Position numbers and translations under genes: made by a program. Below, piece after piece: positions 10,744 to 54,996 of a stretch of 64,000 nt of DNA. Below the pieces are notes generated by a model. That model saw nothing but the letters and a program-made list of their open reading frames with translations, was not told the origin of the DNA and searched no databases. The DNA comes from Macrocystis pyrifera. Its lineage: Eukaryota; Sar; Phaeophyceae; Laminariales; Laminariaceae. How positions within the stretch are numbered: the first letter of the stretch is position 1; each line of letters begins with the position of its first letter. The stretch is from assembly GCA_031763025.1 (NCBI GenBank), contig JASSKH010000021.1, positions 3,162,001-3,226,000 on the forward strand, in the 5' to 3' direction.

Positions 10744-12435
10744 CTGTAATTCTAGTAGCAGTAGGTTCCGGCTGTCATCGTTGTTTGCCTCTGCAACACG
10801 CACGGTGTGTATCTTGTGCCGTGAAACGCTTCAGCCCCGGAATATGCCCGGATCTAACCCGCGGTGGACGGTACTCCTGGTATACTGTTGTAGTTACCAT
10901 TTTTCAAGAGGGTCTTATATTTAGTATTTACGGCCAGCACTGGCGGTTTGAGCGGCACCACTTCCAACCACCGCCACTATCAAGTCTAGATAGCTGCAAA
11001 CGCAGCAGCTACCCCCGCTCCGAAAAAAACGCTAAAATCGACGGTTCCAAGATAACGTCATATCAAAAGGACGAGGGTAGAATGGCACAGTGAATAACAG
11101 GGCGGATGCGACGTATCTTCCCGTCTGTCATCGTACCGCTGTACGTAGTACTGTACCTACTACTGCACGACACCTACCAGTAATGTGTGCATAATATAAG
11201 TCACAGCAGTACTTGTGCACGACTGATACGTCATATGTACCTGGTACAGTAGTTTCGTATCGCACCTACTTACTTTTGTTAGCCACCAGGTCCGAGACTG
11301 CCTCTCCGTACTGATGTTGGTCCGCGCCTACTGCTGCTGCTTTGCCTATTGCACCTACCTCTACGTATGTATACGTTGGCTAAACGTATAATGTGAGGTT
11401 ACGCGGTTGTCTCTTCCCACAAATCCAGAAGCGTCCGTCCGTCCGATTCGTCAACAAAGCCATACACCTTAACCCTAATACAAACCACCACCTCCCCGAT
11501 CACCATACATGTACTAAGGTTGCACTTAGGGAACCGCACAGCAACACATATCGTTGTCGTGTTCGACAGTATGATAAAATGCGAGCCAATCACATCAGAT
11601 TCTGAGAGTTCAGCTACGTCCTCAATCGAGAAGCTCTCGTCAGCAAACGACTTGGCAAAATAATGATGTTAATCCTGAGCCCAATTTCGTCGATCGCGTC
11701 AGTTTCCACAAACAAAAACCAACCCTACTGTATCTCAACCTTCACTCGCGCCCGCCACGAAACACAAGCGAGTACCTTCATTGTACTTGGCGTATATGGA
11801 ACGCGGCTCTGGAAGCATACATCCGACGAAGTTTATGTGCCGTGGTTGCTTCTCTAAAGGTAGACATATTATTTATGGTTTGCCGCTGTGGATTGCCGCC
11901 TTGGAAACCTCTGACGCTCATAATTCTAGGTTACACCTTTATGACGTCTGGATCGTACCTAGAGCGATGCATGGTCGGGACCGCACGGTTTCCCGAGGCT
12001 CACGGCACAAGGTTCCGGTAACGAAGAGGCACGAACCATATAGACAGGCCTTCCACCCCACAGAGGTTTACCGGCATAACGTTTGTACCCTCCGTACTGT
12101 TTACTGTTGGACAGGTCGCGATCTGCAGTAAATTTCCATTTAGCATATGCTTCATAGCCCACTATGCTCTGTTGTGCAGAAAATACCCGGTATCTGTAAG
12201 AACATAACAGAATCAGCCCATGAAACGTCTGCTAGATTGATGGAGATCATACGGCTGCCACCCAGCAACATGAGCTACATAGAATTGAACAATTTCGCAC
12301 ATATCGTAAGTCTGTCCACCCTGGAAAATCTAGATCACGACTTCAAGATCTGTGATCTGTCCGATGTGTGGACACGTTCGAAATCTCCCGTTCTCTTCGT
12401 CACTGTTCTCCTTCGTTCGGTTTGGCAATGGTTCT
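10744..12435. other. stretch downstream of the glycosyltransferase gene, no gene recognised
   Basis: Only short overlapping open frames. The part next to 12436 should contain the 3' UTR and polyadenylation region of the minus-strand gene, but I could not place a poly(A) site. One TACCTGGTA site lies at 11238-11246. Confidence 0.5.
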
Positions 12436-13511
12436 TTAGCAGCCCTGCGCACCGCAGTGCTTGTTACCATCGTTTGCATGAAACGACTCACAGGGCTGGA
12501 CGTGTCTGGTGAGCCATATATCTCCATAGCCAGTAGCAGTATATTCGCACGTGTCCGTGGTCAAGTACGGGTATCGTTCAATCTCACTGCCCGCGGTCTC
12601 GTTCCCCTCCGGCAAGTGCCGTGTTGGTGTATGCCTGGAGGCCTCCCACAGCACAGCCATCTCTTCGGGATACGCGTGGTGCACCCCCATGTGCTCTTGG
12701 CAAACAGACTCATAGGTCGAAGGGCCGCGTCTCTTTATTTGTTTCTTCATACGTTTCACCAAGAGGCCGTCATGGTCGAGCCGTTCGTCGTGTACCCAAC
12801 GCACGTCGCCGTCTTTGTTGGCGTCGTGATCCACCGTGAACCAATAACCGGCCGACGTCCCACCATAGGGGCCGCAGCGAAGATCTTTAATCGACAGGAC
12901 GCGATGGACGAGAGCGCCCGACAGGAGCATGTACGCCTCGTCTATCCGCGTCTCGCCAGGCGTGCAGTACCGGAAGCCGGCGTATAGCATCAGTTGCGGC
13001 AGCGACGGATCCTCTCTTTCATAGGCCAGAGTCATCTGTCCCGTCAACGAGCGCTTCGTCGCTTCCAGCTCATCCAGCAAGCGGTCAAGACAAAGGAAGT
13101 AATCATCGTCTAATCGGAGGAAAAAATCGAAGTTGTACCGGCCGGACACGTGCTTCATCGCGGAGAGAAGCTTGACAGCAAAGTTCATGCCCCTTTCGAT
13201 GTTCACTACGACAAGATCTCCGTAGGTCTCCGACTCCTCTTTCAAAGCCCTCGCCTCGGCTTGGCCTGTCGGCTTGTTTTCATCCGGCGCCTCGGTGAAA
13301 AACCGCAGCACCACACGATCATCGGCCCACGCTAGCCACGCGTTACGTATGGCCTCTCTCCTCTCCTTACGAATCGTCACAACAGCAATAACCAGCAATA
13401 CGGAAGGCTTGTTACCATCCTCGACGTCTTGCATCCCTATTTCCGCATCCGCTTGCAGTTTCCGCTGCTGCGGGTCTTGGCCGTTCCCTTTTCCCAGGGT
13501 TGCTTCAGTTA
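12436..13511 (-). CDS. exon 7: GT31 beta-1,3-galactosyltransferase-like domain
   Basis: Single open exon to the stop at 12436. PSVLLVIAVV is the first beta-strand, followed by ERREAIRNAW, YGDLVVVNIERGMNFAVK, FFLRLDDDYF (catalytic metal motif) and YMLLSGALVHRVL, all in GT31 (Galactosyl_T) order. A clear E-D-V/M-x-x-G motif, usual in animal members, was not found. There is no anchor or in-frame ATG before residue M581 (ATG at 13434), which argues that the exon depends on the upstream exons. GT31 enzymes transfer Gal or GlcNAc in beta-1,3 linkage; the specificity here is open. Confidence 0.85.
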
Positions 13512-16500: not shown

Positions 16501-19500
16501 CAAAACGATCTCCATCTACTTTCCCTGCCCCAGGCTCTGCCCAATAGTAGCTCACCTTCGCCCCGTGATGAATAGCATACAGGTAGCCGACGTTCTTGCG
16601 ACCGAAGTGGTTGGGTGGAATAATTTCCAGTATCCGGTACGGCAGTGCTTCTTGGTCGGCAAAAGACAGGTATGTTACCCCCGCGGTATCGAACATCTTA
16701 CCACCTGCGATAGTGAGGCGATTGGGAAGGAACGACAAACATATTAAACGGCGCTCAGTCGGGAGTGGTGATCTTTGTGTGTCAGGCGACTGTGTTCAGT
16801 GCTGATTGCCGCTAGCATCGTCATCCCAGCGGCATCGTTTCCTTGGCAGGAAATTCTCGCGGATGCCTCCGCGAAAGAATTCGCTCAGGAGAAAAATAAA
16901 ATAAAAACAACTACTTTGGTAGGTGTGGCGCTCTTGCGTATGTACTCTGGCGATAAAGGTTGATAAAAGTATAACGTTTTTTCTGCAATAGTATTGCCGC
17001 AAGCTCGACCAAGCCAGTCTTTCTTCGACTTCTTCAGGAAAATGCACGTCTCCGAGGTAACAGCTAGCCAGACCCATACCCGGTGCTTGACAGAAATGAA
17101 AAAAAAAGGATTAATTTGAGGCGTGCTACGGCAGAAGTTCACCCTATATTTTCTGAGGCTCATATGTTCCCCCAAGGTATGATGCAGAGTTCAACGGGAA
17201 CAAAACATACGAACACGATTGATGCTACTCGCATCTCGTACGCGTACGTGGGCATGATGCCCACCAATGTAGAGCACAGGTTTCAAACTCATCCTTCAAC
17301 TTGCGCCCCACAGGGACGCCAGGATGGCTCAGAAAGTTGTTTTTTCCAAATGTGATATTTCTATCGTAGAACGCCTCCTATACCACGTCTGACCACGTCG
17401 TCGCAGTTTTTGCATCGGGGCGGCCAGTGTGGATTTCGCGCCGTTAACTACGGTGTACAACGAGGACGAAGATGAGAAAGGCGCGCTGCTGCTTCCCGCG
17501 CCGACACGACGATCACAAAGACGTATTGTGGTCTCCTAGATGGATGGCATGTCCAGAAGCGCGTCTTGGGAACGTGTGGAGTGGACAAAACTGTCGCTGG
17601 CTGGCTCAAACCAAGGATGAGTGTCCGCCATGGAGGATTTACACCATAGGGGTGTATATCACGTTCTGCCTCAGTTTTGTTCGACGGGTAGAGCTCTTCA
17701 AGCGAGAAACTACCGGTGAGTATGATGCGTTTACTAATACGGGGGAAACATAGTGAGCAGGACTAGAAACGACTGGTACAGATTACACAGTTTTGGTGTA
17801 TATGATAGGGACCTGCTACTTGTTTTGGGACTATATGGCGCATACACACATCGTTCGGGTTGTATCAACAAAACGTCCTCGACGTCATGTCGCGAGATAA
17901 CATATTGAGCTTTTCTTGAGGAAGAGCTCAAAATAAAGCACTATCCATATCGTGTCTTTGTCCCACCATGGGAAGCACGGGAACACTCGACTTGGACGCA
18001 TGAAAGGTCTGCACGAGGCCGCAGGCACAGCTCCCCGGGGCGAGAGGGATAGGGGTGTGACTCGGACGACTGAACTGCCGTCTTCCGACGGGTGCCGCGG
18101 TAGCGGTAACACCTAGACTTTCCGAGGCCCATCCGGTGGAAAAGCTCCATCGTACCCAAAAACTGTTCGGTGATAGGAAGCTAGGAGTGCAACCCGTCGA
18201 ACAATATCGCAAAATTCTACGCAGGGTGTATATATATATGTGTGTATCACGAGTACAATAGTAGCTGTAGTACAATGGCAAAACCACGATATTGATATTC
18301 CAACGATATTGGGGGCAAAAGGAGGTCCGGCAAAGCAGAAATGTTTGTATCAGAAAGCGCTACTGTAGTTACCCCTATTGTAGCAAGCATTTTCCCAGCT
18401 TCTCCAGCGTGTCCCCTTCGTTTCTGTTCTTGGTGAACCTCGCGTTCTTTTGAGGACAAAAAAAGCCAAAATCAGGTGCACCTTAAGCCAATAACAGTTA
18501 CGTATTGAAACCAAGTTGGAAACACACGCCGCGAGGGGTGCTCCTGGTGACGAAAAATCGCTTCTTTTTATTCTGCTTCCACATTGACCATGTGGCCTCC
18601 AAAATCCGACTTGTTTGGTTTTCTTTAGGGTAGGGACTGCGGGCTCCACTTGGGCTTGCACAGGGTTACACGGCTTTGATAGTTTCGCCACGGCGGGCGG
18701 GCTGAGAGTATGTGTTAAGGCGCCCCCCCCCCCCCCCCGTTGTCAGCTTTGAAGCCTCTTGACGATCCTCGCGGAACCGCCTGCACGGTGCGACGTTATT
18801 TGCCGTACCCATCCTGAGGGCCCCTCGACGCGGGGTAAGACAGGCGGACTGTCGTCTGTGTCCACGATGCTGTACAACAGAGTGTACCATGATTACACAT
18901 CATCACAACTGAAGCCCATCGTACACCCCAAAGAAGCAAAAATGAAAACAGCGTACGTATGCATATATGTGTGTTCTGCACATTACACCGTTCTTTCTAC
19001 CCGTCGACATCCAGCACAACCAGTGCCCGTGCCGATTCTGGAATCCTAGAAAGATACAGGATATGTGGTCACAAAACTACGCCACAGAGATACTACGTTG
19101 CCACGTACCAGGTATGCAGTAAGCACAATGGACAATTCAATGCCATGTCATCACCATACTGGATACGTCAGGCACGACATACACATTTCTAAGAAATAGA
19201 AAAACGAAAGTAAACCAAAACAAAAAACAAAAAAAAACAAAGAAGACAAATCGAAAAACAAAAAGAAAAAAGAAAAAATGCTGAACAAGAAACAAACTGT
19301 CGTGCCCCCCCGCAGGTGATGTGGTAGACACTTGAGATGAATGAGCTGGAACAAAACCAAAAGAAGAAAACATCCCTACTTGTAAACAGAGAAATACTAC
19401 GAACCACGGGGAAAAAACAATCAAAACAAAGCACAAAGTACCCTCCAGGTAGCGGCAGCAGTTTGTGGCACGAGTAGCATAGCCAGGTTCTCCCTTCTAG

Positions 19501-22500: not shown

Positions 22501-25500
22501 GAAATACTGTTTGAGACGTGGCGTGGATGCTCTAGACGGTACGTTGGGTGGTACGTGCACACCGTCGAATCATGCTGCTAAAGCGCATCGAAATCGAAGC
22601 TATGCGGTAGATCAGGTTAGACTACACGTTCCTCTACCTCCTCCTCCTCCTGTGCAAGAACGGTTTAAGTTCGAATGTGTCCCTTCGAGCATGAAAGGCC
22701 ATCAAGACGTGATAGTTCAACACCAACGGCAACCTCGCTGACACCGTCAAGGGCCTCCATGTATTTCTTGGCACGGTGCCCTCAGAAACTGACTAAACAA
22801 AACTGCTCGGAGCTATTCATGGATTGCAGCGATGTTTACTCCATCATGAAAGGGCAGCCTAGGCCGACCAAAACAGCAAGAGAGTTGACCACGACAGCAG
22901 ATCCTTCCCTCGTGCATCCCCAGGGAGCGCAAGGCAGAGCGTCTCGCGACCTTTAGACAAACCGAGCGTATACGGACGCAGAAATCGGCATCTCTATCGT
23001 GCTCAAACACGAGAGGGTAACTGACACCATCGACGACGGGTGGAACGCCTAGGAGAAGCTGCAATAGAATAGTACTATTATTATCTACGTCACTGACGAG
23101 ACCACCCGCGTAAGGGCAACCGAGGGGGGAGCAACCACCGTGAAGAAAGTCCGGACAAGATCCGGGTTTCTCTTTCGCTGAGGCGATAGTCAAGCGCGCA
23201 GAAAGGACGAGCGCAGGACGAGTCCATGACCGGCCGGCATTGCAAGGACATCCCGTCCAAGCGTTGCCGAGAGTACAAGAGAAGAAAATTTACGATGTAC
23301 CGTAACCTGACCCTACCTCGCCCAGAACTGGACGCCACTTGTAGCTAGACAACCACTGCCGTGGCTCTGCAGCAGGGAGTATAATTACTGGGCATGGTGT
23401 CATGTCAGTGGAGTCAGTTGTTTGACACCAGGTACGCGTAGTGTATATCTGTGACGAAGCATGCCTTATCCGCGGAACGACGGCATATAACTTCCCAAAG
23501 CCACATCGGAGAATACACCAAGCACGACAAGGGCCAGAACGACATCAAGAGGAACATTGCGGGAGCCAAAGGTGAGTCCAGGGGCGGAGGCGGCGCGGGG
23601 GAAACGCAGTGTTGCGTTTATAAGTCCACGCCTCACATCAACGCTGAGTGCTATCAGTATGGAGCGCCACGCCCACAGCACAGCGCATGCACCACATCTG
23701 TCCTCGGAGCCAGCAACACCTTTGCTGTTGTCTAGGAGCCGGCCGTCAGCGTCGGCGGTTGTTTCTTGAGGATGGCGTCTATCCAAGGAAAGACGTTTCT
23801 GCCCAACAACCACGCACAGAATGGCGATGATGGTAATGCCCGGGTTGAATGACCTGGTAAGACACTACTCTTTGTTGAACAACCGAAGACTATCGTGCCC
23901 ACCGGCAACAGTAAACTACGTGGGACTGCAACTAGAAAATCCTCTCAGGCGCTATCGTTAACCAGACCGGCAAGAAGTGTCAAGCTCGGTTTTACCGCTT
24001 GCCATTTTCAGGCCTGGGGCGCCACGGTGACCCCCACCTGAGGGGAGGGTAGCGTCGTAGTGCCGTTACTCTGGAGTTGAGTATGATTTGATTTCAAGTG
24101 TAAGTAGGTGCAAAAAGAAGAGCATCATCGCCTTTTTGTTATGAAGAGTAGACACTGTGCTACTCCGTCAGCGCTGAATGAGTAGCTCAGTGGTCATATC
24201 CTTTATAAATAAACAATCCCGCCGATACATTCCTCCGGGGTTGATGGAAGCCCCTAATCAGCGCCTGGGTTTTCCTTCATATGGTCCCCCTACTTAGTCG
24301 TGTGATCGTATACTCAAGTGGTTCACTCCACCTGATTTTTCCTTTTTCTACCGACGGCAGAAAAGGCGGAAATACGACGTCTGGCGGGACTCGATTAGTT
24401 GTATACCAGGTATCCTTTATAAACAAACATCGCCCGCAATCAGCGACACACTATCGCCCGGAGCGTTGCCTCCCGGGATCGTCAAAGCACCGATGACTGG
24501 CGTCCGTCGGAATGATATCGCCAGAACATCTTCGCCTGGAGTCGCTCGAACAGCACCGCCTGATGGCCCGAGATCATTGGATCATCATCACCTGGGATCA
24601 TCGAAGCATCGGCCTGTTCTGAGCGCTTTCGCCTGGGGATGCCAGGGCTTCGTCGTTTGAGATTGCCGGACTGACATGGCTCGAGGCTGAAAGAGCAGAT
24701 CACCCGGGGTTGACGGAGCATTACTGTCTGGGGCGGCCGGAGTGTCGTCGACTTGGACCCACCATCGAATACTACCACCTGAGGTCGACGGAATTGACCC
24801 CCACTACTTCACCTGGGTTCGCGTCTACCTCTCGTCAGCCACACATACCTCACGCCTCCGCATGCGCATAACTCATCATCGATACCAACCATTAGCTGAT
24901 GTAGCTTTTCACGTTCATTGGCATCGTAGCTGTAGGACTACTGCGAGGCAATATCGAGGCAAGACCTATGGATTCCGCACACGACCACGGAAAACGCTTT
25001 ATGATATTTATGGCCTTCATGTACATCTACAGGTCAACTTCGGGTTTCCTCTTCTTTCTGCACGAAGGGGCCATTAGAATCGAGGCCATAATGCAGACAC
25101 CGACTGCATAGCCAACTGTGAGAGCCGACGTAAAAACAACAAGCTTTGGAGGGAGGGATGCTACCGACATCTCCAGGTTCAAAGTAGAGGTGGGCTTGGT
25201 CCTTCACTCCGGCGCCAACATGATGGAACATGGCTGATGATGTGTCTCGCGAAAAGACTCACAGATGGATGATGACGCCCAGTGATCGTGAGATACACTG
25301 GCGCTGTTCCATAGAACAGTAAATAGAGGGATATATTTGAAAGGTGTCGCTTATGTGTCGGTGGTAAAGAGAGCGGTGATGATGGAGAGTGATGGGAGAG
25401 GGAGTTCGTGGTGCTCACATCTCGAGTGCGATCACCCGCTGTAATCACCCTGATAGGTCGCGAATAACTTACTATACATGACTCCATGATACGACCATGT

Positions 25501-27760
25501 GCCAGTACGCCAGAACCTCCGTATTCCAGTATGCTATCATACGATACACTACGAGTAGTCGTACTCTATCAAGCTTGTCCTACCGACAATCTTAACGTAG
25601 ATCATCGACGATGTACATCTGAAAATGTACGATTAGACGTGACAGTCTTCTGTATATTCCAACACCACACACTACGACAGCACCGAAGCCTAGCACGTTG
25701 TCAGAAAATTCACGCATAATCGAGGACAATGCTTATTGATTTCCCGCTTTTCTTTCTCGATTTGGTCCAGAGAGCAACATCACTAACCACACTTGCCGAC
25801 ACAGCCGATGCTCGCAGCCTGCGTGACCAAGCACCTCACTAAGAAGCAATGCGGCCCGATCCTGCTGAAACTCCGGATTTCTCGTACGGAGCAGGGATTC
25901 TTCGAACGAGAGAGGTCCCTAAAGCGTACAATGTCGGTACATGTAACGAAGGAATTTCTCTTTAACTAGTACCTGGTATTTGCGGACTTCAAGATATAAT
26001 CTCTCGTGTTGAGCAGGGGTTGTGTGAACAAGGGAGGGCGAACATCAACGCCTACAAGATCGGAACAATAGAGAGCGTGGTTTACCTCTAAAACCAGCAT
26101 TCGTAGTCCCCAACAGATGTAAAGTCGATGGCATTGTTCCTTATTTAGATTGCGCGCGGCAGGAAAAGTGGGAGACGTTCGGCTTTGTGCTTGTTGCGCC
26201 CGAACAGGGTAACTGTCGTAACGTATGTCGGGCATATCCTACCTGATCAATTGACTGGACGCAATATTCTTCGGTTTCGATTCCAGTTTAGTAGTAAGCC
26301 AATGCGTGGTGTGTATATAGCTCGCGGAATTTAGGGGGCGGACATGGACGTGACTGCTACACTGTAGTTTTGCTTTCAAATAATAGGTTAACTAACTGAT
26401 TACTGAGGTAGTGTTCTAGCGTCTTATATGGGAGCGCGTGCGAACCACGTCTGTTTTGTACCAAACAAATCCAGAGTGCATCCGGTCATAACCGCATTTG
26501 TTGTTCTTTAGGTTTCTCCGCGATAGACCATCTTCGTCCCGGCAAAGACCATTGTCGAGCAGAACGTTGAGATTGCAAAGAGTTGCCTTCAGCATCATTG
26601 CGAGCTTACGTCAGCAAGTAAATTGTTCGAGAGTTTTTGATATTCGACGTTGAATAATCTGACCCTGACCCCCCAACCCTTTGGGGGGCTTCAGATCGGC
26701 AGGCGCAGTCACTTGTCTCCGCCGTGGGTTTCGTATTATGTATCGAGGCACTATTTTGGCATTCCTCGGGAATGTAGAGCCGTCTTTTCTTTGCGAGGTA
26801 CTCTGACGAATGTGATCGGAGTGCCGGTGTACCTGACATGATAATACGTGACCATGGTCTGTTAAAATACCGGTATCAGTCGTGTGTGTTGACGAAGTCG
26901 GATGCAACTTTGGTGTGGCTGACCTCCGGTGTGCGGTGTGTGTTTTGGTGTAGTGTATACATACCAGGCGTACCTCGGTTCTTTGACGACCATGGTATAG
27001 CAGCGCATGCAACAAGTGGAAGCGTCCGACAGCAGCGTATACAAATACCTGTGTGATTGGACGCGTTCTACGATAGAGGTAGCACGTTTCCGCTAAAATG
27101 TTTCCGAATGACGCGGCTCCTTAACCCATAATCGTCGGAATGGCAATCTTGTTTCGAAAAATAGGTTTTGGTATACTTGGACCGTGGAATACTCATCAGG
27201 ATGCAATTTGACTTTTCCTGAAATAAGTTTTCGGGTGTGGTATGGAGCTCCTTAAGGTCAAGTGAGGAGCCTCAGAAAAATTAGGGTGAACCTCTATCGT
27301 AGAACGCCTCATTGACCGAACAACTATTTTACTAGTTTAGGACCTAACTCACCACGCCTGGATAAATAGCTTATTTATGCTTGTTTTAGAACTCTGCTGC
27401 CTGTTATCATTTGAGTTCGACTCTTTTCAGTTAACTCCTTGCCCATAGAGAGTCTGCACAATAGTTGACTGCCGCACCAGCAGAGCGACCTACCTCGCCA
27501 AGGCTTGAGCTTATTTCTTGGTCGATCAGGTGCTCTGGGAGGGGTCGAAGGTTGCCTCGGGTTCGGATGAAGTTGCTCCACCCGTTCCGCGCACTCTCCC
27601 TAGATGGTTGAGGCGCGACGATCCATGCGATACCGACGACAAAGCCCGTCATGGCAGCGGCGACGACCACCATCCACCTGGAAATACTGCTGCTCCGCCT
27701 ACATGATCCATGTTGGCAGCTGAGGGGGCGAGAGTCCATACACGAGAAGGCGGGGCGCAT
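12436..27760 (-). CDS. two-domain glycosyltransferase: STELLO/DUF288 plus GT31, seven exons (predicted)
   Basis: Spliced model of 2739 nt (912 residues). Exons, in order: 27760-27494, 21500-21266, 16704-16556, 15857-15369, 14815-14665, 14010-13639, 13511-12436. Every intron is GT-AG and the phases (0,1,0,0,1,1) fit at each junction. Residues ~29-49 form an uncharged anchor after an Arg/Ser-rich start, as in Golgi type II enzymes. Residues ~130-490 match the STELLO (DUF288) family as I remember it: RWGVTMLSSPT, LPYRI...RKNVGYLYAIHHGAK, an IYDLDD metal-site candidate, NPYPCFG, EPDVDAMYRL, PYNAQ, and FWGLLLP with VSDIWRSYF. Residues ~590-830 are GT31-like (ERREAIRNAW; FFLRLDDDYF with the DDD triad at ~689-691). 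Plant STELLO proteins act in the Golgi on cellulose synthase assembly; the acceptor here is unknown. Main doubts: the exon 1 link and whether the last intron truly fuses the GT31 part. Confidence 0.75.
13639..14010 (-). CDS. exon 6: C-terminal part of DUF288 domain and linker
   Basis: After acceptor CGACAG|AGTCGC it encodes SRNIMSDLESEFELYERSG, then SLVQIQDLAIDMYEHGIV and RAWLKDLHSVGYKFNRP, matching the C-terminal helical part of DUF288. A linker follows, containing an acidic PYVEEEEQGK segment. Donor CGACAG|GTGACT is in phase 1. Without splicing the frame runs into a TGA at 13520-13522, so an unspliced or alternatively spliced form would end the protein before the GT31 domain. Confidence 0.85.
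14342..14362. repeat. poly-G tract, 21 bp, in intron 5
   Basis: Uninterrupted G run on the plus strand (C on the gene's strand). A further G12 run lies at 14878-14889 in intron 4. The open frame across the 21-bp tract was considered as an exon and rejected. Confidence 0.9.
14665..14815 (-). CDS. exon 5: DUF288 FWGLLLP / VSDIWRSYF block
   Basis: 50 codons plus one base. It begins ATLHFSPAFWGLLLPITV and continues VSDIWRSYFTQALL, then AAPWVT, in the order known for the family. Acceptor is GAGCAG|GCAACA. The donor is read as GACAC|GTGTGA, because phase 1 then joins to AG|TCG in exon 6 and gives WVTQSRN, the family-like reading; GT at 14662 (CGT|GTGAGC) is an alternative. Confidence 0.85.
15369..15857 (-). 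CDS. exon 4: DUF288 metal-site candidate and NPYPCFG / EPDVDAMYRL blocks
   Basis: 163 codons between acceptor GCCTAG|GTGATT and donor GCCCAG|GTAACT, both phase 0. It starts VIYDLDDAN, the expected continuation of HHGAK, with D221, D223 and D224 as candidate metal ligands. It continues with NPYPCFGGP, PRGFPLD, HHEPDVDAMYRL (~residues 324-335) and ends at FTPYNAQ. Confidence 0.88.
16556..16704 (-). CDS. exon 3: DUF288 core (RKNVGYLYAI...HGAK)
   Basis: Acceptor ATCGCAG|GTGG follows a pyrimidine-rich tract; donor is GCGAAG|GTGAGC, phase 0. It encodes 49 residues including YLSFADQEALPYRI and RKNVGYLYAIHHGAK, among the most recognisable DUF288 blocks. The open frame runs on into the intron to 16445, but similarity stops at the donor. 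Confidence 0.88.
18723..18738. repeat. poly-C tract, 16 bp
   Basis: Uninterrupted C run inside intron 2. Confidence 0.9.
18967..19968 (-). mobile_element. LINE 3' fragment (copy j), minus strand, inside intron 2
   Basis: Begins at the family 3' end (TGTGTTCTGCACATTACACC-like) and carries the ~800-bp A-rich 3' UTR (blocks GTGGTCACAAAACTACGCC, CAATGCCATGTCATCA, GGTAGCGGCAGCAGTTT, GACCACGTTCGAACCAGCTG). It ends about 200 bp into the terminal part of the ORF (GCGCGGCGCTGCTTACTCAG). It lies in the same orientation as the host gene and carries a 7-bp TACCAGG insertion relative to other copies (19106). Confidence 0.85.
19106..19114. other. TACCAGGTA footprint-like site, supported by LINE comparison
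   Basis: LINE j has GCCACGTACCAGGTATGCAG where copy d (near 36370) has GCCACGTATGCAG. The difference is exactly 7 bp, leaving TA-CCAGG-TA at a former TA. Confidence 0.8.
21266..21500 (-). CDS. exon 2: start of the DUF288 domain
   Basis: Encodes 78 residues plus one base. RWGVTMLSSPT...AVKQLA and KEWCILVVG match the first beta-strands of the STELLO domain (VVTT-x-PT-x-A, then W-C-VVVG). The chosen acceptor is GGGCCAG|ATCCC at 21501, and the donor is AACG|GTGAGG in phase 1. An in-frame ATG at 21527 just upstream is an alternative start if exon 1 does not belong to this gene. Confidence 0.8.
22670..23760 (+). pseudogene. decayed gag-like relic in intron 1
   Basis: Plus-strand frames with stops give coherent protein-like stretches (MYFLARCPQKLTKQNCSELF near 22760; AYTDAEIGISIVLKHERVTD near 22960). 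They are followed near 23600-23680 by a Gly/Arg-rich segment and CCVYKSTPHINAEC, resembling the C..H-type knuckle ending of many Copia-type Gag proteins. No pol domains were seen. The assignment is tentative. Confidence 0.35.
24225..24830. repeat. degenerate ~30-40-bp tandem repeat
   Basis: Recurring phrases of the type CACCTGGGRTCGNCGGAGCA with variable spacing, e.g. near 24233, 24473, 24535, 24590, 24635, 24700 and 24775. The copies are strongly diverged and the period is irregular. Open frames here are by-products. Confidence 0.5.
27494..27760 (-). CDS. exon 1: N-terminal signal anchor
   Basis: Open from ATG at 27760 (a second in-frame ATG is at 27739; either could be the start). It encodes 89 residues with RRSSSISR followed by a ~20-residue hydrophobic segment, MVVVAAAMTGFVVGIAWIVA, the form of a type II Golgi anchor. 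It ends at a good donor, GAG|GTAGGT, in phase 0. It is joined to exon 2 because that exon lacks an anchor and enters in phase 0. The intervening 5.99-kb intron makes this the least certain link; it could instead be the first exon of another gene. Confidence 0.55.
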
Positions 27761-28224: not shown

Positions 28225-29743
28225 CCTCCAAAAAACGGCGAGGACATCAGACGATCGCCTCGCTTAACCTGAAGGTCCGAAAGCTGAAGGCCGAGGTGAA
28301 TGACATCCTGCTGTACGGGTGAGTGACGTGGACCCTGAGAGCGGAACACTTTGCCAAGCTTTGAACGGCCCACCAAGTCCTCCTGCGAGTCATTGCCTTC
28401 TAGCGCCGACTTGCGCTGACCACGCCACGTTCTCGTACGCGAAGGCCCTAAAGATGATACGTCGTGAAAGCATCGAAACGACCATCCGTAAACGGCGGCT
28501 CGCTTTCGCGGGAGCTGTGGCACGGCAACGCAAGGAGCAAATACCCAGTTAGGTATGGTCTGGAACAATGGCTGGGGGGGAGAACCCAAGACCTGGCGGA
28601 TACCTCAAGACTTGGCATAGGTGCATCGTCGAAGCCCTGAAGGAGTTTCCAGCCACCAAATGGCCAACGCAACACTCCCCCTTGATGTTTGAAGTTGAGA
28701 TCGCGCTGTGGATCACTGCAGCAAGAAAGGCGGGGATGGAGCACCGGGGCCCCCCTGAAGCAGCCGAACGGTTCATGGCGAGGTAGGACGAAAATGAGAC
28801 ACAACTGAGTAGGCAACGCCGCGCATCGGCCGCGGGTGGTGCCCAAGGGAATGGGGGGACGGGTGGCAACAAGGGTAGAAAGAAACCCGACAGGCGGGAA
28901 TGTGGGGAAGGCGGGGGCAACAGGACGAGTAGAAGAGAAACCGCGTAGACTAAAGTACAAAGGAGACGGCAGACAGGGTAGCAAGGTAGCAATAACTAGT
29001 GAAGTATTTACAACATGTCTACGCCACTCGTACTGCCAACTTCTGCAGCCGGTTGGAACGTGGTCTTTCTTTGTCTTCTTTTTTTTTTGCGCTTGATCCT
29101 CCGTGATTTCCGTTGTATTACTTCATCTTTCTTTCTTCCTGGATTTACCTAAAGAGTCGTCTGGCGTTGGTGGATGACGAGCCTCCTATGCTTGTTTAGT
29201 ATCGTCTGATGCGTCCTCTCCGGGGGTAGGGCGTAGTTGACGAAAACAAGACGGAGACGGCACACAGAGTACCAAGGTACCAGACCAACTAGTAGGTGAT
29301 ACCTGGCTATGCTAGTACCACAAAGTGCTGCGTGTATCTGGAGGGTGCGTTGTGCTTTGGTTAACCTGTTGTTTCCCTTGGTTCTTACTAATAGTCTTAC
29401 TCTGTCTGTAGTGGTGCGTCTTTCGCTCGTTCTTGTCGAGTGTCTGCCACACGTCCTGAGAGGAGGCACGACAGATTAATATTCTGTTAAATTTTCTTCT
29501 TTTTCTTTTGATTTGTTTCTTTGCTGTCTGAATATATTTTTCCTCTCTTTCAAATGATGTGTATGCCGTGGCTGTCGTATCCAGTACCTGGTATGATGAC
29601 ACATGGCACTGCGTTGTCTGCTCTGCTTCCTACATAACAACGTACCTTCTCTGTGGCGTAGATTTGTGACCACAGAGCTTGGATCGCTCTAGGATTGAAG
29701 AATCAGCCTGGGCTGTGGTCGTGCTGGATGTCGATGGGTAGAA
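28225..29743 (+). mobile_element. LINE copy a: 5'-truncated, plus strand
   Basis: Starts within the C-terminal part of the LINE ORF (LKVRKLKAEV...WTLRAEHFAKL, then [15 protein letters not shown] near 28470). It carries several in-frame stops and frameshifts, reaches the ORF end near 28990 and continues through the complete ~750-bp pyrimidine-rich 3' UTR to GCTGGATGTCGATGGGTAGAA. It contains a 7-bp ACCTGGT insertion at 29585-29593 relative to its relatives. Confidence 0.88.
29585..29593. other. TACCTGGTA footprint-like site, supported by LINE comparison
   Basis: LINE a reads CAGTACCTGGTATGATGAC; the matching position of copy f (reverse complement of about 54853-54870) reads CAGTATGATGAC. Exactly 7 bp is inserted at TA. 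Confidence 0.8.
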
Positions 29744-29754
29744 GCAGCACAAAA

Positions 29755-42645: not shown

Positions 42646-43512
42646 CTGTTCATGGGCTGTATAACTGACCAATACAAATTACGTACCAGGTAGAATAGAA
42701 CGATATCAACACAAACAACCACATATTTTTTGTACGTACCAGGTACAGCAGTGCGTGATATGATATGAGATCGGATCTGCTTCTGTTCCGAAGATACTGT
42801 TGCGGCGGAGGGACGTGGAAGCAACCAAAAGTACGACGAGTCGAGGCATGCAGCCACGAGTCGTTGGGTGCAGAGTAGAGGCGGACTGCTCTGTGGGTGT
42901 GGGATGGGTGTTTCATTCAGCAGACGGAATCAGCCTGCTGAATGCAAAAAGCCTGACCGAGGTGTACAGCGCATGCAGCGCGTGGACCAACGTCGAGTGT
43001 GGACGCTACCCAGGCAAGGAAGAGAATACGTGCAAAACCTAAAAAGTGAACTAAATGACTAAAAACTAAAGGATTAAAGGCTAAACCGACTGTTCGCTTG
43101 CATTTACGCATCATTTCGCTCGCAATCGGGGTTTTTGGTCATCATTTCCTTCGCTCTCGCCTGAGCGAAGCCCTGGAGCCACTGGGACTGCCGAAGGGTA
43201 TGAGCTTGTCCGGGGTGTGAAATGTTATGTTTTACAGCCTCCCCATTCGCGGCACACTGTCATAATCATAGTGCCAATGCCGTACTACTGTGGGTATACA
43301 CTCATCCAAACCATAGGTGCTGTCGTGGCGGCACTGCAAGTAGTTTAGTGCCACCAATTCAGACACGAAAACACCAAAAACCATAAAACAGCTGCCTCCC
43401 TGCTAAAAACTCACCAAACTCATCGACTGTCCAAAAACTCAAATTCAATGCAAATTTCCAAACAGTACTGTACTGGCGTAAGCCTCAACAATCTCCCAAA
43501 CACTCAACTTCC
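42646..43512. other. stretch with no gene recognised
   Basis: Contains two closely spaced TACCAGGTA sites (42684-42692 and 42737-42745). No coding or RNA feature was recognised. Confidence 0.5.
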
Positions 43513-43972: not shown

Positions 43973-43987
43973 GGGGGGGGGGGGGGG
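43973..43987. repeat. poly-G tract, 15 bp
   Basis: Uninterrupted G run on the plus strand. The flanking ~330 bp up to LINE copy e shows nothing recognisable. Confidence 0.9.
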
Positions 43988-44071
43988 TACAAAACAAAAT
44001 AATCAAAAATTGAACAATAGACTATTAATCGAAGAAACGTTTCGCTATGGGTGGCTATTGCTGCCAACAAT

Positions 44072-48294: not shown

Positions 48295-48630
48295 ATATAC
48301 ACGCAATTGTATCCATCAATAGCCATCGTCACCCACAATAGACTGCTGGGCGTGTTTTCGCAATGGACTATTCATTGCCTGAACCTGTTATTGTATACCG
48401 TGGAATGATGCATTTCCATGGTCATTCTTAGCTGCCATATTGCCGCCAATAATAGGTTCACGATTGTCTCCAACAATAGCCATCGCCACATACAATCAAT
48501 AGATTGTTGGTGGGGCTCCGAAAAATATGAATATGACTTAATTCATTTCAGTATGGGACATAAACCTCGAGTTAACAAACGGAAAGCTGATAATTTTCTA
48601 GTCAAAGTGGATTGTTTTTAGTATCCCGGC
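48295..48630. other. spacer between the two SINE copies
   Basis: AT-rich sequence with CAATAGCCATCG-like words (near 48329, 48474) related to the minisatellite at 50131-50600. No gene. Confidence 0.5.
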
Positions 48631-48944
48631 GTCCCCGGTGGCTTGGTGGGTGGTCCGCGAGCATATCAAGATCAATTTCGTGGGTGCGCACCGAGTGCAT
48701 GCTGGTGGTAGGGACTTTTTCTTGTACAAAATTGATTAGCGGAAGGCGCGAGAGCGTGAGTTAGCTGTACATTCGAAGAAAATCGACCAGCAGTGGGAAT
48801 GCTGAACCCGATGCGCGACAAAAAAAAAGGCACGTGCCGTGGGGGAAGAGGGACGACACCTATGACCACGACTTGTCCAGAAAATTGCTGAGGGTAACAC
48901 CTCGAGGGTAACACCTCCTACGAGTTAGGCTGAAAAGTGAAAGA
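48631..48944 (+). mobile_element. tRNA-headed SINE, copy 2 (inverted relative to copy 1)
   Basis: Same start (GTCCCCGGTGGCTTGG) and body as copy 1, in opposite orientation 336 bp away. The B-box is mutated (GTGGGTGCGCACCG), and GAGGGTAACACCTC is duplicated near its 3' end. A TACCTGGTA site lies exactly at the end (48945-48953). Confidence 0.65.
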
Positions 48945-49628
48945 TACCTGGTATGATTTTTATTTTCTTTAAAACGAAAGTAAGTGCAGTTAATATCAGA
49001 CAACGAAACCTAGGGGCAACCAATCGAATTTATTTCCGAACTAAAAAAAGCAAAAATAAACATGACCAGCATCCAAATAAAATAAAAAAAAACTCTTACT
49101 TACTTGGTTTCGGTATGGAACAAACAAACCTGAGATGAGAAACGGAAAGCTTGAAAATTACAACATGTAAGGTGGTTTTAGTTTAATTATCCACGATCTA
49201 TCCGAGGTGGATTTTCTAGATAGACTGTTTTTGTAGGACAAAGTAAGGCTGGCTATTAAATCGAATCAATTTCCGAAACTACCGGCGCGCACAACTTCAT
49301 GACAGCAGTCACCAACTTGGTGCGCGGGTTTCTACTATTAGTAATAGCGACGTATAAACTTGTACTTTATAAAATTATATTTACTATATATATATGTATC
49401 TTTAAATCTTTAAATGAGTGTGGAGAGATGTTCCTCGGTTTACATTATTAATACCATGCACTTAAACACAGAACATGACATGCCTGGTACCTCAGAAGAT
49501 GACCTGGCATATATTTGCCAACTCGTTGTGTTTCGAAGGATAAAATCTCGTTCTCATTAGAAAGGCAATTCTCAATTAGGAAAATCGACTGTGTACAACA
49601 ACAGTAACCATCGCCATCCACATTATTT
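48945..49628. other. AT-rich stretch, no gene recognised
   Basis: No coding or RNA feature seen; includes A-rich runs near 49045-49090 and a (TA)n run near 49384-49394. Confidence 0.5.
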
Positions 49629-50050
49629 CTCTTTTTACTTAGTTGATTAAGTGTTCCCCGGGATGCATATTTCCATTTTTCCTTCCCGTTTCTTCCCCTT
49701 GCACGTCTATTTTGGTTCGGGGTATGTGTCTGAGCTTTGGCGTCCCATTTTATTTATTTATTTGGGATTCTTCTCCTTTTCTTTTTCGGTTTGGTTTCTT
49801 CCTTGCTTCTCTTTCTTTATGGTGTTTTTTTGTTGCTGCCGTACCTGTGTATGCTGTGTCGGCCGCACCTAGTGCGAAGGCATGGTATTGCGTAGGCTAT
49901 AAATTTTAAATGCATTACGGTGTGTTATCTCTGTGTCGTAGTCTGTGACCACAGAGCGCGTATCTTTCTAGGGTGAAGAATTAGCACGGACACTGGGCTT
50001 GCTGGATGTCGACGAGTAGAAAAACGGTTTAATGTGAAGAACACACACAA
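49629..50050 (+). mobile_element. LINE 3'-end fragment (copy i), plus strand
   Basis: Matches the 3' UTR of copy e in reverse complement (GGCCGCACCTAGTGCGAAGG, GGCTTGCTGGATGTCGACGA), ends GGTTTAATGTGAAGAA and is followed by (CA)4. Only about 420 bp of the 3' UTR is present. Confidence 0.88.
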
Positions 50051-50130
50051 ATTAGATTATTGGACGTGCTTCCAAAAATAGACTATTGCCTCGCGTATAT
50101 CGCGGGATGAGTGCAAGATATCCTCCAGAT

Positions 50131-50600
50131 GGTTATCGAAGGATAGCTTGTACATTCTATTATGGCCGGCACTGGCCATCGAAAGACATCTCGTACAATC
50201 TATTATAAAATTGTGGCCGGCAATGGCCATCGATAGACATTTGACCGTCTATAGATCTCTCGCACAATCTATTATTGTGGTCGGCAATGTCCGTCGATAG
50301 ATCTCTCCCTCAATGTATTGAGGCCACCAATGGCTATCGATAGACATCTCGCACAATCTATCATGGCCGGCAATGGCCATCGATCGATATCTCGCACATT
50401 CTATTATCATCGTGGCCTGCAATGGCCATCGATGGACAAAGTTCACCATCTATTGTGTTCGGCATTGTCTATTGATCGAAAAATATCCCCAGTCTATTGT
50501 CGCCGACAATATCTATCGATAGACACTTTCCATAATCTATTGTCGCAGACAATATACATCGATATACTCCCCCTTCGTCTATTGTCAAAGCATTAGACTA
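50131..50600. repeat. minisatellite, ~43-60-bp units, about 10 copies
   Basis: Units follow the pattern CGATAGACATCTCGCACAAT, CTATTGTGGCCGGCAATGG, CCAT. Starts are near 50137, 50187, 50230, 50293, 50337, 50380, 50429, 50474, 50517 and 50560. The units become more AT-rich and diverged toward the right end. The GGCCGGCAATGGCCATCGAT region is rich in short palindromes. Confidence 0.85.
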
Positions 50601-50613
50601 TTCTTGTGTCCGT

Positions 50614-51032
50614 TAACACTGGGTTTTAGAACTTGAGAAAATGACAAGTAGTTGAGAAAAAAAACGTCTAAGCGGCTAACTTCTTCAATTCGTAACATAA
50701 TTCAAGTCTGATCGGCTCAAAAACTACGTACTCCTCAACAGCAACCGAATGCACTTCCTTTTAATGAAATCGAACCAGTACAGCCGGAGGTACGGCAAAA
50801 ACAATCGTTTGAAGCGAAAAATGAAATCCGCGGTAAATAGATTGTTTTTGCTGTTACTCCGGCTGTACTGATTCGATTTTATCAAAAGTAAGTGCGTTCG
50901 GTTGCTGTTCAGGAGTACGTAGTTTTTGAGCCGATCAGACTTGAATTATTTTACGGATTGAAGAAGTTAGCCGCTTATTAGATGTTCTCTTTTCTCAACT
51001 ACTTGTCATTCAAGTTATGAAATCCAGTGTTC
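50614..51032. repeat. ~420-bp imperfect palindrome (foldback element)
   Basis: Arms of about 185 bp. The left arm (50614-50798) includes AACACTGG, CTAAGCGGCTAACTTCTTCA, CAAGTCTGATCGGCTCAAAA and CAGTACAGCCGG. The right arm (about 50840-51032) is its reverse complement, ending CCAGTGTT. The loop of ~40 bp is AT-rich. There is no coding capacity, so it is a MITE-like foldback or a potential hairpin-RNA source. Confidence 0.88.
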
Positions 51033-51657
51033 ATTGTCCAGAGTGTGATTGGTCACAGCAATCTGTGCAGCATCATGGTCACACGGCATTTCGTCTGCAC
51101 CACCCCGCATCGAGGTCTCAGGTTTGGTACGGCATGATAACTTCGTGCGGAGAAGGCAGTTCCGCGAGGACGGTCTATAAGCTTTAAAGTGGTCAACGGG
51201 GGAAGGGTGCCAGAGTAAATACTCTTCTTGGCGCCCCGGCCGTGGCGAAACAAACGAAGCATATATTATTTGTCATGACTCTGCAGGTCCAAGTGGAGCC
51301 CGTGGTACCTAGACCCTAAATAAAACAAAACAATTCAGATTTTGGAGGCCATGTGGCACGATTATTCTTTAGGCGCATTCTTTTCTGATCGGATTTTCAT
51401 AAACATACCTGGTAAATTACACCGCTTGCTTGTGGCTCGCATTTTTTACTCGGTTTTGGGATTACCTGATATTGGCTCAAACGGATCAGGTATACCTTAT
51501 TTTGGCGTTTTCCCTATACATAATGAACGGGAGAACATCATCATCGTCATCCTCATTACGTGCAAACGAAGAAGCTAAGCAGCACAAAATACAATGGATG
51601 TGATCTGAAGTTGTGCCATTATTGACTTGATGTGAGTTACAGCGGTATGCAAGGTTG

Positions 51658-52690
51658 ATACCAAGGATTATCACAGTGACTGAGAATCGTGACGGGACGG
51701 GACGGGACAGATTTTACTCGTTTGGCAGTGAAAAAAAATGAAAACGGGACGGTAAAATGAGGACAGAAAAAGTTGGCGGGACGGGACAGCGGGTGCCAAA
51801 TTTCTCGACGGGACGGGACGGTAAAAGTCAACGGGGCTGATTTTCACGACTGGACGGGACGGTAAATGTTTTTCCCCTCGGCGGGACGGGACGGTAAATA
51901 TTTTTTACCTCGGTGGGACGGGACGGTAAATATTTTTTTCCTCGGCCGGACGGGACGGTAAATATTGTTTCCTCGGCGGGACGGGACGGTAAATATTTTT
52001 CCCACGGTCCCGCACACCGCTGGTTCCGCGAAGAGAGCCGTCCCAACGCGGACGTTTCCTTCTCGACCTGCGCAGCCCAAGCCCCGAGAAGTGCTGCCAC
52101 TACACAGGCGACGTCTTCTGATTTCTTCCACCCCTGCCCCGAGCACTGTTGTTGTTGCGTTGCCAGCTCATGGTGGCTGTTATGATGGTTGTGCTTGCGC
52201 TGTGTTGCTCGTGGTTGTGGAGGTGGAGGTGGTGGCGGTGGTGGTGATTCTAGTGCCGCTGCTGGTCGATCGACCCCGCCCGTGAGATAGGCATCCATCC
52301 GTGGCGTCCGTGTCGGTCACACCAAAGATGTTAGGAGACAGCACTTTTGCCCTTGACATACAGCAACTTTGCATTGACATTGACATGCTTTGACTGACAC
52401 CAAACTACTAGGTTTTAAAGTGTGTAATACTCGGCCCTACATCCTTGACAGCGCACGTTTTGCGTCCCGCTTGATGGCATGTCTCCTGAAATCTTTTTGG
52501 GCCACACCAGTACTGGTGTGATCGTGAGTTGAGTGGTCTCTGTGTTGAGTGGTCTCTGTGCTGTTTGTGTGTGGTGGCGAGCCTGCGGCAGCTAGTGCGT
52601 TATGATACTACTCTGCGTTCAGTTGCGAGTGGAAATATGAAGTATGAAGATTTAAAAACAATGAAAAGAAAAAACAACACCACCACTAGT
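51658..52690. repeat. inverted-repeat arm A
   Basis: Starts CCAAGGATTATCACAGTGAC at about 51661 and ends CACCACCACTAG. It is the reverse complement of 53471-54466 over about 1 kb. It contains a GC-rich minisatellite (51849-52010) and a (GGT)n-rich stretch near 52210-52250. Open frames in it are low-complexity by-products. Confidence 0.8.
51849..52010. repeat. GC-rich minisatellite, ~33-bp units (GGCGGGACGGGACGGTAAAT)
   Basis: Five units of GGCGGGACGGGACGGTAAAT plus a T-rich spacer ending CCTC. The mirror array lies at about 54130-54320. Related GGGACGGGACGG tracts lie at both ends of the arms and inside element C. Confidence 0.85.
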
Positions 52691-53470
52691 TACCAAGGCT
52701 TATCACGGTAATTTCGGCGGAACGGTAACGGCGGTAACGGCGGGACGGGACGGGACGGTAAAACCGCCGTCAAAATGGTCCCGCCGTCCCGTCCCGTCCC
52801 GTCCCGCCGACAAAATCCCTGACCGTCGTCGCTTAACCGTCCCGTCCCGCCTATAAAATCTCTCCCGTTGGAAATTCCCGTCCCGTCCCGCCGTGACACA
52901 GAAAAAATACCGTCCCGTCCCGCCGCCGATAAAATCTCTCCCGTAGAAAATTATCGTTCCGTCCCGTCGTGGCACCGCCGCCGGCAGACATAACTTGCCT
53001 CTTCCCGTACAAGAAATATTCATGGTGGTCTGTTCCCACCCATTTCCACCACGAACTACGAAAATAATCAAGAAATTTCGAGTTGTACCAAACTTCAATA
53101 GTAATTCCTATATAAATACATGTGTTATCGTAAGTTGTGCCCAACTCCCATCTATAAATGAAATACGTACCAGGTATAGAATAGTAGTAGGCGTATTACC
53201 CAGCTTGCAAAATTGGGTATCAACTATTCAATTATTAATCAGTCGAACTCACAGATGACGTATTTTCATCGTCTTGCTTATATAATACCTGGTCAGTGGT
53301 TGGTATGATATTGCTGGGCACCACATTTACTTCTGCTAGAAAAAGCTGTGCTGGTGATGTTGATCACCAGCTGGTTGATGATCTGTTTCAAATGAAGGTA
53401 AGTACAAATATTACCGAAAAAGGATGAAAATTACTACCAGGTACTCGTACCAAGTAGTAAGTGTATATAT
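52691..53470 (+). repeat. repeat element C, copy 1
   Basis: Starts CCAAGGCTTATCACGGTAAT and has GGGACGGGACGG tracts for ~300 bp. It then becomes AT-rich (CCCAACTCCCATCTATAAAT, ATTCAATTATTAATCAGTCG, GTATGATATTGCTGGGCACC) and ends near CCAAGTAGTAAG. The second copy, in reverse orientation, is split by LINE copy f (54467-54677 and 59456-60022). This copy has a 7-bp TACCAGG insertion at 53168 that copy 2 lacks. Confidence 0.8.
53168..53176. other. TACCAGGTA footprint-like site, supported by repeat C comparison
   Basis: Repeat C copy 1 reads AAATACGTACCAGGTATAGA; copy 2 (reverse complement near 59525) reads AAATACGTATAGA. Exactly 7 bp is inserted at TA. Confidence 0.85.
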
Positions 53471-54466
53471 ATATACCTGGTGGTGTTGTTTTTTCTTTTC
53501 ATATCTTCATTCTTCATTTCCGCTCGCAACTGAAAGCAGACTATCATATCACAACACCTGCCACAGGCTCGCCACCACACACAAAGAGCACACAGACCAC
53601 GACCACACCAGTACTACTGGTGTGGCCCAAAAAGATTTTAGGAGACACCCCATCAAGCGGGACGCGAAACGTGCGCTGTCAAGGATGTAGGGTCGAGTGT
53701 TACACACTGTCAATGTCAATGCCAAGTTGCTGTCTGTCAAGGGGTGAAAGTGCTCTCCTAACATCTTTGGTGTGACCGTCACGGACGCCATGGATGCCCA
53801 TCTCACGGGCGGGGTCGATCGACCAGCAGCGGCATAGGAATCACCACCGCCGCCGCCACCACCTCCATCTGCACAACCACCAGTAACACAGCGCGAGCAC
53901 TACCATCAGAACAGCCACCATGAGCTGGCAACGCAACCACAGCGCTTGGGGCAGGGGTGGAAGAAATCAGAAGACGTCGCCCGTGTAGTGGCAGCACTTC
54001 TCGGGGCTTGGGCTGCGCGGGTCGAGAAGAAAACATCTGCGTCGGGACGGCTCCCTTCGCAGAACCAGCAGTGTGCGGAAATGTTTCACGTACAACCGTG
54101 CTGACCCTGCGGCGGGAAAGAAGAAAAATATATTTATCGTCCCGCCCGCCGAAGAAAAAGAAAATTACCGTCCCGTCCCGCCGTGGGAAAAAATATTTGC
54201 CGTCTCGTCCCGCCGAGGAAAAAAATATTTACCGTCCCGTCCCGCCGAGGAAAAAAATATTTACCGTCTCGTCCCGCCGAGGGGAAAAATATTTACCGTC
54301 CCGTCCCGCCGTGAAAATCAGCCCCGTTGACTTTTACCGTCCCGTCCCGTCGAGAAGTTCGGCACCCGCTGTCCCGTCCCGTCCCGTCCCGCCAACGTTT
54401 TATGTCCTCATTTTACCGTCCCGTCCCGTCCCGTTACGATTCTCAGTCACTGTGATAAGCCTTGCT
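53471..54466. repeat. inverted-repeat arm A' (reverse complement of A)
   Basis: Runs from GGTGGTGTTGTTTTTTC to GATTCTCAGTCACTGTGATA-AGCCTTG and mirrors arm A, including the CCGTCCCGTCCCGCCGAGG minisatellite. Together A, C and A' form a stem of ~1 kb with a ~780-bp loop. Confidence 0.8.
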
Positions 54467-54677
54467 AGTTACTACTTGGTAGAAATTTTCATTCTTTTTC
54501 GTAGATGGCAATATTTGTACTTACCTTCATTTGAAAGTATATAAAACGAATCATCAACCAGCTGCTGATCAACACCACCAGCACAGCTTTTCCTAGCAGA
54601 AGTAAATGTGGTGCCCAGCAATTTCATATCACTGACCAGGTATTATATAAGCAAGACGATGAAATTACGTGATCTGT
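54467..54677 (-). repeat. repeat element C, copy 2, left part (split by LINE f)
   Basis: Reverse complement of 53255-53460 (ATCAACCAGCTGCTGATCAA, GGTGCCCAGCAATTTCATAT, ATTATATAAGCAAGACGATG). It stops at ATCTGTG, where the LINE begins; the element resumes at 59456. Confidence 0.85.
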
Positions 54678-54987
54678 GTTGTTGTTGTTGTTGTTGTTGT
54701 TTTCTTCACATTAAACGTTCTTTCTACGCGTCGACATCCAGCACAACCAGTGTCCGTGCCGATTCTTCAAACCTAGAGAGATACAGGTTCTGTGGTCACA
54801 AAGCTACGCCACAGAGATACTACGTTGCCACGTATGTAATGCAATGCCATGTCATCATACTGCGTACGACAGGCACGACATACACATTCCATGACTTAGA
54901 AAAACAAAAACGAAACAAAGAGAAAAACAAAAACAAAAACAAAGACAATTCGAAAGAGAAAAGAAACAAAAAAAAAAAACTAAAATA

Positions 54988-54996
54988 TACCTGGTA
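54988..54996. other. TACCTGGTA footprint-like site in LINE f, supported by LINE g
   Basis: LINE f reads AAATATACCTGGTATATGTA; LINE g (reverse complement near 63265) reads AAATATATGTATA. Again the difference is 7 bp at TA. The region is TA-rich, so the alignment is slightly less unique than the other three. Confidence 0.7.

Follow-up and report, generated by a model that had tools for sequence, protein, structure and literature searches.

Excision scars are, to our knowledge, usually studied one locus at a time. Tc1/mariner elements have been described with overhangs of 2-3 nt and footprints of 2-4 bp (PMC7913693, PMC3878927), and 2 or 3 nt is the overhang length described in the relevant sections of PMC3878927, PMC7827188, and PMC2170065. 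Sleeping Beauty and Frog Prince, with an overhang of 3 nt (PMC7827188), leave the footprint C(A/T)GTA, and the mariner element Hsmar1 leaves T(T/A)A (PMC3878927). As outlined in the latter source, the identical 3' overhangs of Sleeping Beauty and Hsmar1 pair except at the centre. Stowaway MITEs and the plant mariner Osmar5 also target TA and leave short fragments of their ends, in scars that vary (1-4 bp fragments; PMC1925063). In the brown alga Ectocarpus, Mariner-Tc1 elements are abundant, with almost 12,000 copies, most of which are non-autonomous (PMC12477816); the words "footprint" and "excision" are absent from the main text of that paper.

In this study, we analyzed a stretch of 64,000 nucleotides of the giant kelp Macrocystis pyrifera (contig JASSKH010000021.1, positions 3,162,001 to 3,226,000; hereafter the window), in which the 9-mer TACCWGGTA recurs. 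As far as the cited sections describe Sleeping Beauty and Frog Prince, the kelp 9-mer would resemble their footprints in combining insertion at TA with an overhang and a second TA, and its core is likewise an odd palindrome whose central A or T would come from a mismatch between identical overhangs; the overhangs of Sleeping Beauty and Hsmar1 share their design with CC(A/T)GG (PMC3878927). However, the predicted kelp overhang is 5 nt (or 4) instead of 3 nt, and the core is 5 nt compared with 3 nt for Hsmar1, whose logic and TA target are the same. The kelp sites also have a single dominant form, whereas Stowaway and Osmar5 scars vary, and this one dominant length is tidier than that reported for other elements in the sections cited (PMC7913693, PMC1925063). 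Among the literature matches listed, those containing the 9-mer dealt with subjects unrelated to transposons, and those on kelp or brown algal footprints or on genome-wide footprint surveys did not report this scar in their titles and abstract openings.

Sites in the window and in the genome

A sequence-only reading had placed twelve exact TACCWGGTA sites in the window against a chance expectation of about 0.5. All 12 were found exactly where it had placed them, and 100 dinucleotide shuffles gave a mean of 0.40 and a maximum of 2. The sites are as follows.

11238..11246, strand., TACCTGGTA scar, exact match
19106..19114, strand., TACCAGGTA scar within a LINE-flank repeat, inserted at TA as exactly 7 bp, with copies without the scar
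24404..24412, strand., TACCAGGTA scar, exact match
25970..25978, strand., TACCTGGTA scar, exact match
29585..29593, strand., TACCTGGTA scar within the LINE-flank repeat of 19106 in an inverted copy, inserted at TA as exactly 7 bp, with copies having a 7-bp gap
42684..42692, strand., TACCAGGTA scar, exact match
42737..42745, strand., TACCAGGTA scar, exact match
48945..48953, strand., TACCTGGTA scar, exact match
51406..51414, strand., TACCTGGTA scar, exact match
53168..53176, strand., TACCAGGTA scar, exact 7-bp insertion at TA, with an inverted copy without the scar
53435..53443, strand., TACCAGGTA scar, exact match
54988..54996, strand., TACCTGGTA scar in a TA-rich run, with the same scar in the paralogue G000:C202:3126989

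The same reading had taken the A or T at the centre as a sign of mismatch repair. This argument fails, because TACCAGGTA and TACCTGGTA are reverse complements, that is, one sequence on two strands; the split in the window (six A, six T) reflects random orientation and says nothing on mismatch repair. The informative point is the rarity of C or G at the centre, and not the split between A and T. A central C or G (TACCCGGTA), an enrichment rated as mild, was found at 6 sites with 1.59 expected, and a central A or T at 43 with 1.71 expected (both in unique sequence, defined below). In addition, TACCAGGCG, which had been named as a one-mismatch relative near 26966, starts at 26962 and is two mismatches away.

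The genome-wide excess that had been proposed as a check was observed. The assembly (537,376,219 bases in 223 contigs; published as 537 Mb, 223 contigs, and 50.37% GC, according to the section cited of PMC10498591) contains 121,279 TACCWGGTA sites against 2,421 for the pattern read backwards, an excess of about 119,000 over this reversed control. For comparison, a 2.8-Mb bacterial MAG had 24 sites against 11. In other sequence of the kelp genome (200 kb from three contigs), we counted 40 sites with 1.6 expected and none in the reversed control; with the window, this gives a sample of 264 kb with 52 sites in total. When duplicates of at least 95% identity and at least 400 bp were masked, 264,000 bases were reduced to 218,490 bases of unique sequence, in which 43 sites remained with 1.71 expected. 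There, the core letters arranged in the 29 remaining orders summed to 37 with 33.5 expected (maximum 4), and among TA-N5-TA words the other five of the six best listed reached at most 7, compared with 43. That listing was restricted to words with at least three kinds of letter, and TATTAATA, described below, thereby falls outside it.

The 9-mer would also be multiplied if it were part of a high-copy repeat that spread: the scar at 54988 is shared with G000:C202:3126989, and a tandem pair occurs in two copies on contig C1. The flanks, however, are mutually different at 42 of the 52 sites (at least 5 mismatches in 30 bases), and the 43 sites left after duplicate masking also contradict such an origin. 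Spread of this kind adds some copies, but the sample speaks against it as the main cause, and we consider it very improbable as the explanation. The number of independent events is lower than that of sites, because the sample has duplicated stretches and some scars were copied inside repeats. G000:C202:3062001-3122000 and contig C1 contain near-identical inverted or direct duplicates, lying on C202 around a run of N, which are probably assembly duplications; raw repeat counts in the kelp assembly may be inflated.

Homologous copies and the age of the probable scars

A homologous copy across the site was found for 30 of the 52 sites in the 264 kb, with up to five copies listed per site. Eighteen were near-identical duplicates with the same state, among them C1:9591 and C1:44046; four were parts of a tandem scar that two paralogues have in common; one was C1:26346; two, 54988 and G000:C202:3126989, shared the scar with each other; and five were informative, namely 19106, 29585, and 53168 in the window and G000:C202:3126065 and 3141482. 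Among the 17 copies listed for these five sites, 11 lacked exactly 7 bp, six had other gaps, and none had the scar; the exact 7-bp absence was seen in three of five listed copies for 19106, two of five for 29585, one of one for 53168, four of five for 3126065, and one of one for 3141482. In all five exact cases, the 7 bp were bounded by TA on either side, with a single TA at the same place in at least one copy.

The scar-free copies of 19106 lie at 36.2 kb, at 54.7 kb, and at about 3126.7-3126.9 kb of G000:C202, and two more distant copies have other gaps. For 29585, a 7-bp gap was found against copies at 36.7 kb, at 54.9 kb, and one outside the window, with other gaps in three copies. For 53168, one other copy was found, inverted at 59.45-59.82 kb and 90.9% identical, without the scar. 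At G000:C202:3126065, two of the four 7-bp copies have TT in place of TA. Since several copies are scar-free and one copy has the scar, the 9-mer is the derived state at 19106, 29585, and 3126065. The repeat alignments thus bear out the earlier expectation of a 7-bp difference of fixed size at TA, seen at five sites in the 264 kb, with the 9-mer derived at three. That expectation had rested on four window sites, of which 19106, 29585, and 53168 stood with an exact 7-bp difference at TA; 54988 is not counted, as it lies in an AT-rich run and the size of its difference is ambiguous, with a 10-bp gap against the copy at 63.4 kb. Its paralogue G000:C202:3126989, which shares the scar and is 86% identical, shows a 7-bp gap against the same copy. 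In a listing of 409 indel entries, TACCWGG at TA and TATTAATA were the joint commonest TA-flanked insertions, with 6 entries at 5 distinct sites each.

Two further comparisons involved copies of unchanged length. At C1:9591 and its duplicate C1:44046, a copy of 71% identity has TAGCATGCA where the 9-mer sits, which counts against a 7-bp insertion there, unless this copy contains an older, decayed scar; at C1:26346, a copy of the same length has TGCCTGGTA. Alternatively, selection might maintain the 9-mer at many places as a motif, for example one bound by a protein. A 9-bp odd palindrome is typical of sites bound by dimers, and the distant copy at C1:9591 differs by substitutions only. Such a motif would arise by substitutions, however, whereas five sites differ by exactly 7 bp with TA on both sides, and the flank preference described below reaches 7 bp; we give this explanation very little credence.

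Several scars are common to paralogues of about 80-86% identity (a rough value). Furthermore, about 41 scars above chance were accompanied by an excess of about 30 one-letter variants of the 9-mer, corresponding roughly to 0.08 changes per base; central A-to-T changes are excluded from this excess, as they represent one site read on its opposite strand. Because of the one-letter variants and the scars shared by diverged paralogues, the scar-making activity is not only recent. The same data bear on a developmentally programmed, precise removal of TA-bounded DNA that leaves a scar, similar to the IES of ciliates. One dominant scar length would agree with it, as would the absence of the elements from view in the sampled gametophyte genome. 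Paralogues of differing divergence, however, share or lack single scars, as expected for old scattered events, and ciliate IES excision leaves one TA with no added bases. We also know of no such process in brown algae. Programmed removal is very improbable.

The tandem scar TACCWGGTACCWGGTA was found three times in unique sequence, two of the three being paralogues, with 0.16 expected from random re-use of TA, and tandem scars with one letter changed were present at G000:C202:3141354 and C2:34497. For a Stowaway element, the cited section of PMC1925063 reports reinsertion beside or at the TA of an old scar. The kelp tandem scars may hint at such reinsertion at the TA of an old scar, in a suggestive manner given the small numbers.

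Flank preference and the form of the probable scar

If a transposase inserted at these sites, its choice should be visible in the bases flanking TA. We compared 36 of the 43 unique-sequence sites with 2,000 control sets, for which TA sites were sampled no farther than 1 kb from each scar; three tandem scars, accounting for six sites, and C2:5477 with its tandem-like flank were left out. A preference was observed on both sides of TA from +1 to +7 and was gone at +8. The summed chi-square from +1 to +7 was 119.7, compared with a control mean of 23.1 and a control maximum of 59.0, and none of the 2,000 controls was as large. Read outward with the sides pooled, +1 was C or T in 80%, +4 was C in 6%, +6 was T in 46%, and +7 was A or T in 87% (left 89%, right 86%), with +8 at background; positions +5 and +7 were A/T-rich, and +3 differed between the sides. 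In an initial comparison of 42 sites (the 52 minus near-duplicate flanks) with all TA, chi-square peaked at +1, +4, +6, and +7. This preference is independent of the 9-mer itself and is the way in which a DDE transposase picks its insertion sites. Tc1/mariner elements have a palindromic, AT-rich target around TA, and ATATATAT has been reported for ZB and SB in the section cited (PMC7913693), from which the kelp scars differ with C or T at +1.

In the series TACC-N(0..11)-GGTA, N=1 gave 61 sites against 0 in the reversed control, N=0 gave 14 against 6, and N=8 gave 10 against 1; the ten N=8 cases include three tandem scars and two tandem scars with one letter changed. When palindromic and near-palindromic cores between two TAs were ranked by log-likelihood, leaving aside TA microsatellites, TACCWGGTA reached 97.4, TATTAATA 61.6, and the next 14.3. 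In unique sequence, TACCGGTA was mildly enriched (9 with 2.94 expected). In the same 218 kb, the Sleeping Beauty type scar TACWGTA was also mildly enriched (51 with 27.7 expected). The idea of a 3-nt CCA overhang made blunt by fill-in, which predicts TACCATGGTA, was rejected, with none seen and 0.44 expected.

These sites are best explained as excision scars of a TA-targeting cut-and-paste transposon, and on the sequence data we regard this as probably correct. Such a DNA transposon, with ends beginning CCAGG or CCTGG, would insert at TA and duplicate it on insertion. Cleavage of the non-transferred strand by its transposase would then fall about 5 nt, or possibly 4 nt, from each end within the element, so that both flanks keep 3' overhangs of CCAGG or CCTGG. 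In these overhangs, CC would pair with GG around one A-A or T-T mismatch before being sealed, to give TA-CCWGG-TA; in the 4-nt alternative, CCWG overhangs would be joined by the inner CWG. With four G-C pairs in the overhang, one exact joint would be favoured, which would fit the one dominant length. The footprint reading proposed earlier from the window is thus supported by the genome-wide excess, the fixed 7-bp difference, and the transposase-like flanks, although an element with CCWGG ends was not found in the 264 kb.

The TA target, duplicated on insertion as in Tc1/mariner elements, was observed in all five exact cases, whereas the 5-bp core departs from the overhang of 2-3 nt and footprint of 2-4 bp that are typical, though not strictly defining, of these elements. 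The putative kelp transposon works like Tc1/mariner and is a candidate member, with a scar size that departs from the description. Other superfamilies do not fit. piggyBac targets TTAA and excises without a trace, whereas here the target is TA and 7 bp are left behind. hAT elements leave random footprints and duplicate 8 bp of target, whereas a 2-bp duplication and one dominant core were found here. PIF/Harbinger elements (mPing-like), with a 3-bp TNA or ANT duplication in the section cited (PMC12477816), do not fit either, since TA is duplicated and the neighbouring bases vary.

A second probable scar family and the search for the proposed element

A second TA scar, TATTAATA, was found 27 times with 1.06 expected in the 218 kb of unique sequence. 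It showed exact 6-bp presence and absence at five places, one of which is 36636 in the window, and its flank preference differs from that of TACCWGGTA, with G at +1 in 59%. Two independent loci and one duplicate carry a miniature element, about 100 bp long and nearly palindromic, TA-TTACGGGGG...CCCCCGTAA-TA with ends TTACGG.

20798, 28002, 32253, 32953, 36636, 49446, 60188: TATTAATA scars in the window
G000:C202:3077949-3078049 and G000:C1:45935-46043: TTACGG miniature element with TA flanks

Read outward, G adjoins TA on all six sides of this element, and TATTAATA is what results when two letters from each of its ends are set between two TAs, as would be expected if a 2-nt overhang were filled in. 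Judged from these ends, the TTACGG element is likely the source of the TATTAATA scars. In the sample, the 27 TATTAATA sites compare with 2 independent element copies by exact-end search.

A search for inverted repeats beginning CCAGG or CCTGG and flanked by TA, also proposed earlier, gave no convincing element in the 264 kb. The 81 TACCWGG sites not followed by TA gave no convincing inverted pair with CCWGG ends; the best CCWG-ended pair matched at 17 of 24 positions and lay in two inverted LINE-flank copies, the rest reaching at most 16. Neither the general TA-flanked inverted repeats, among the matches listed, nor the large insertions between homologous copies included a convincing CCWGG-ended element, and no occupied allele was seen in the 264 kb. 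Because none was found in 218 kb of unique sequence, more than about 7,000 recognisable copies genome-wide are unlikely by a Poisson estimate. A domain search of the kelp genome gave no match to the Tc1-type DDE_3 (PF13358) and 39 matches to the pogo-type DDE_1 (PF03184), of which 28 were without stops and 17 were nearly full-domain with similar scores. Transposases of a TA-type superfamily therefore exist in the kelp genome, and these copies, probably a recent pogo-type family, are not claimed as the scar source. An Rfam search gave no match.

Dense scars beside an element not found in the 264 kb would also be expected if a transposase or another enzyme joined a fragment of 5-7 bp, for example processed transposon ends, directly into TA, with a full element never present. 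The single dominant length would suit this as well. We know of no enzyme that acts in this way, however, and loss of full elements explains the same data; known Tc1/mariner scars share the form, and the second scar family, TATTAATA, has a resident element. Direct micro-insertion is accordingly unlikely, and excision is preferred.

Several other repeats were observed. At 50669-50977 of the window lies a TA-flanked miniature element with inverted repeats, about 305 bp long and with ends AGCGGCTAACTTCTTC; a long inverted duplication spans 51659-54678, and a GACGGGACGG-type minisatellite lies inside several repeats. The few named close relatives of the window LINE are brown algal (Ectocarpus, with an Undaria record further down). 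No relatives of it were found in viral contigs, and those in bacterial or archaeal genomes were two short contigs in one MAG, neither of which had the TACCWGGTA scar. The Oligoflexales MAG JALZUO01 includes contigs that encode reverse transcriptases and are probably eukaryotic contamination; kelp-like LINEs account for two of them.

In a fuller scenario, to which we would give an even chance, a TA transposase with a 5-nt stagger made cut-and-paste moves of the order of 10^5 in the kelp lineage, its CC/GG overhangs led mostly to one exact closure, and the element is now rare or gone, with a 7-bp trace missed by copy-based annotation. The kelp scars would then record a very active transposon, itself not found so far. 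The scars of a cut-and-paste family can greatly outnumber its copies, and most of its activity can then escape copy-based annotation. The excess of about 119,000 scars over the reversed control in one genome is enough to measure target choice, repair outcome, and event age without an active element. If the 5-nt stagger is true, it widens the range described for such transposases, and overhang pairing would explain the exact repair. The 7-bp mark would, if this reading is true, be among the most abundant transposon traces in the kelp genome while being invisible to copy-based annotation.
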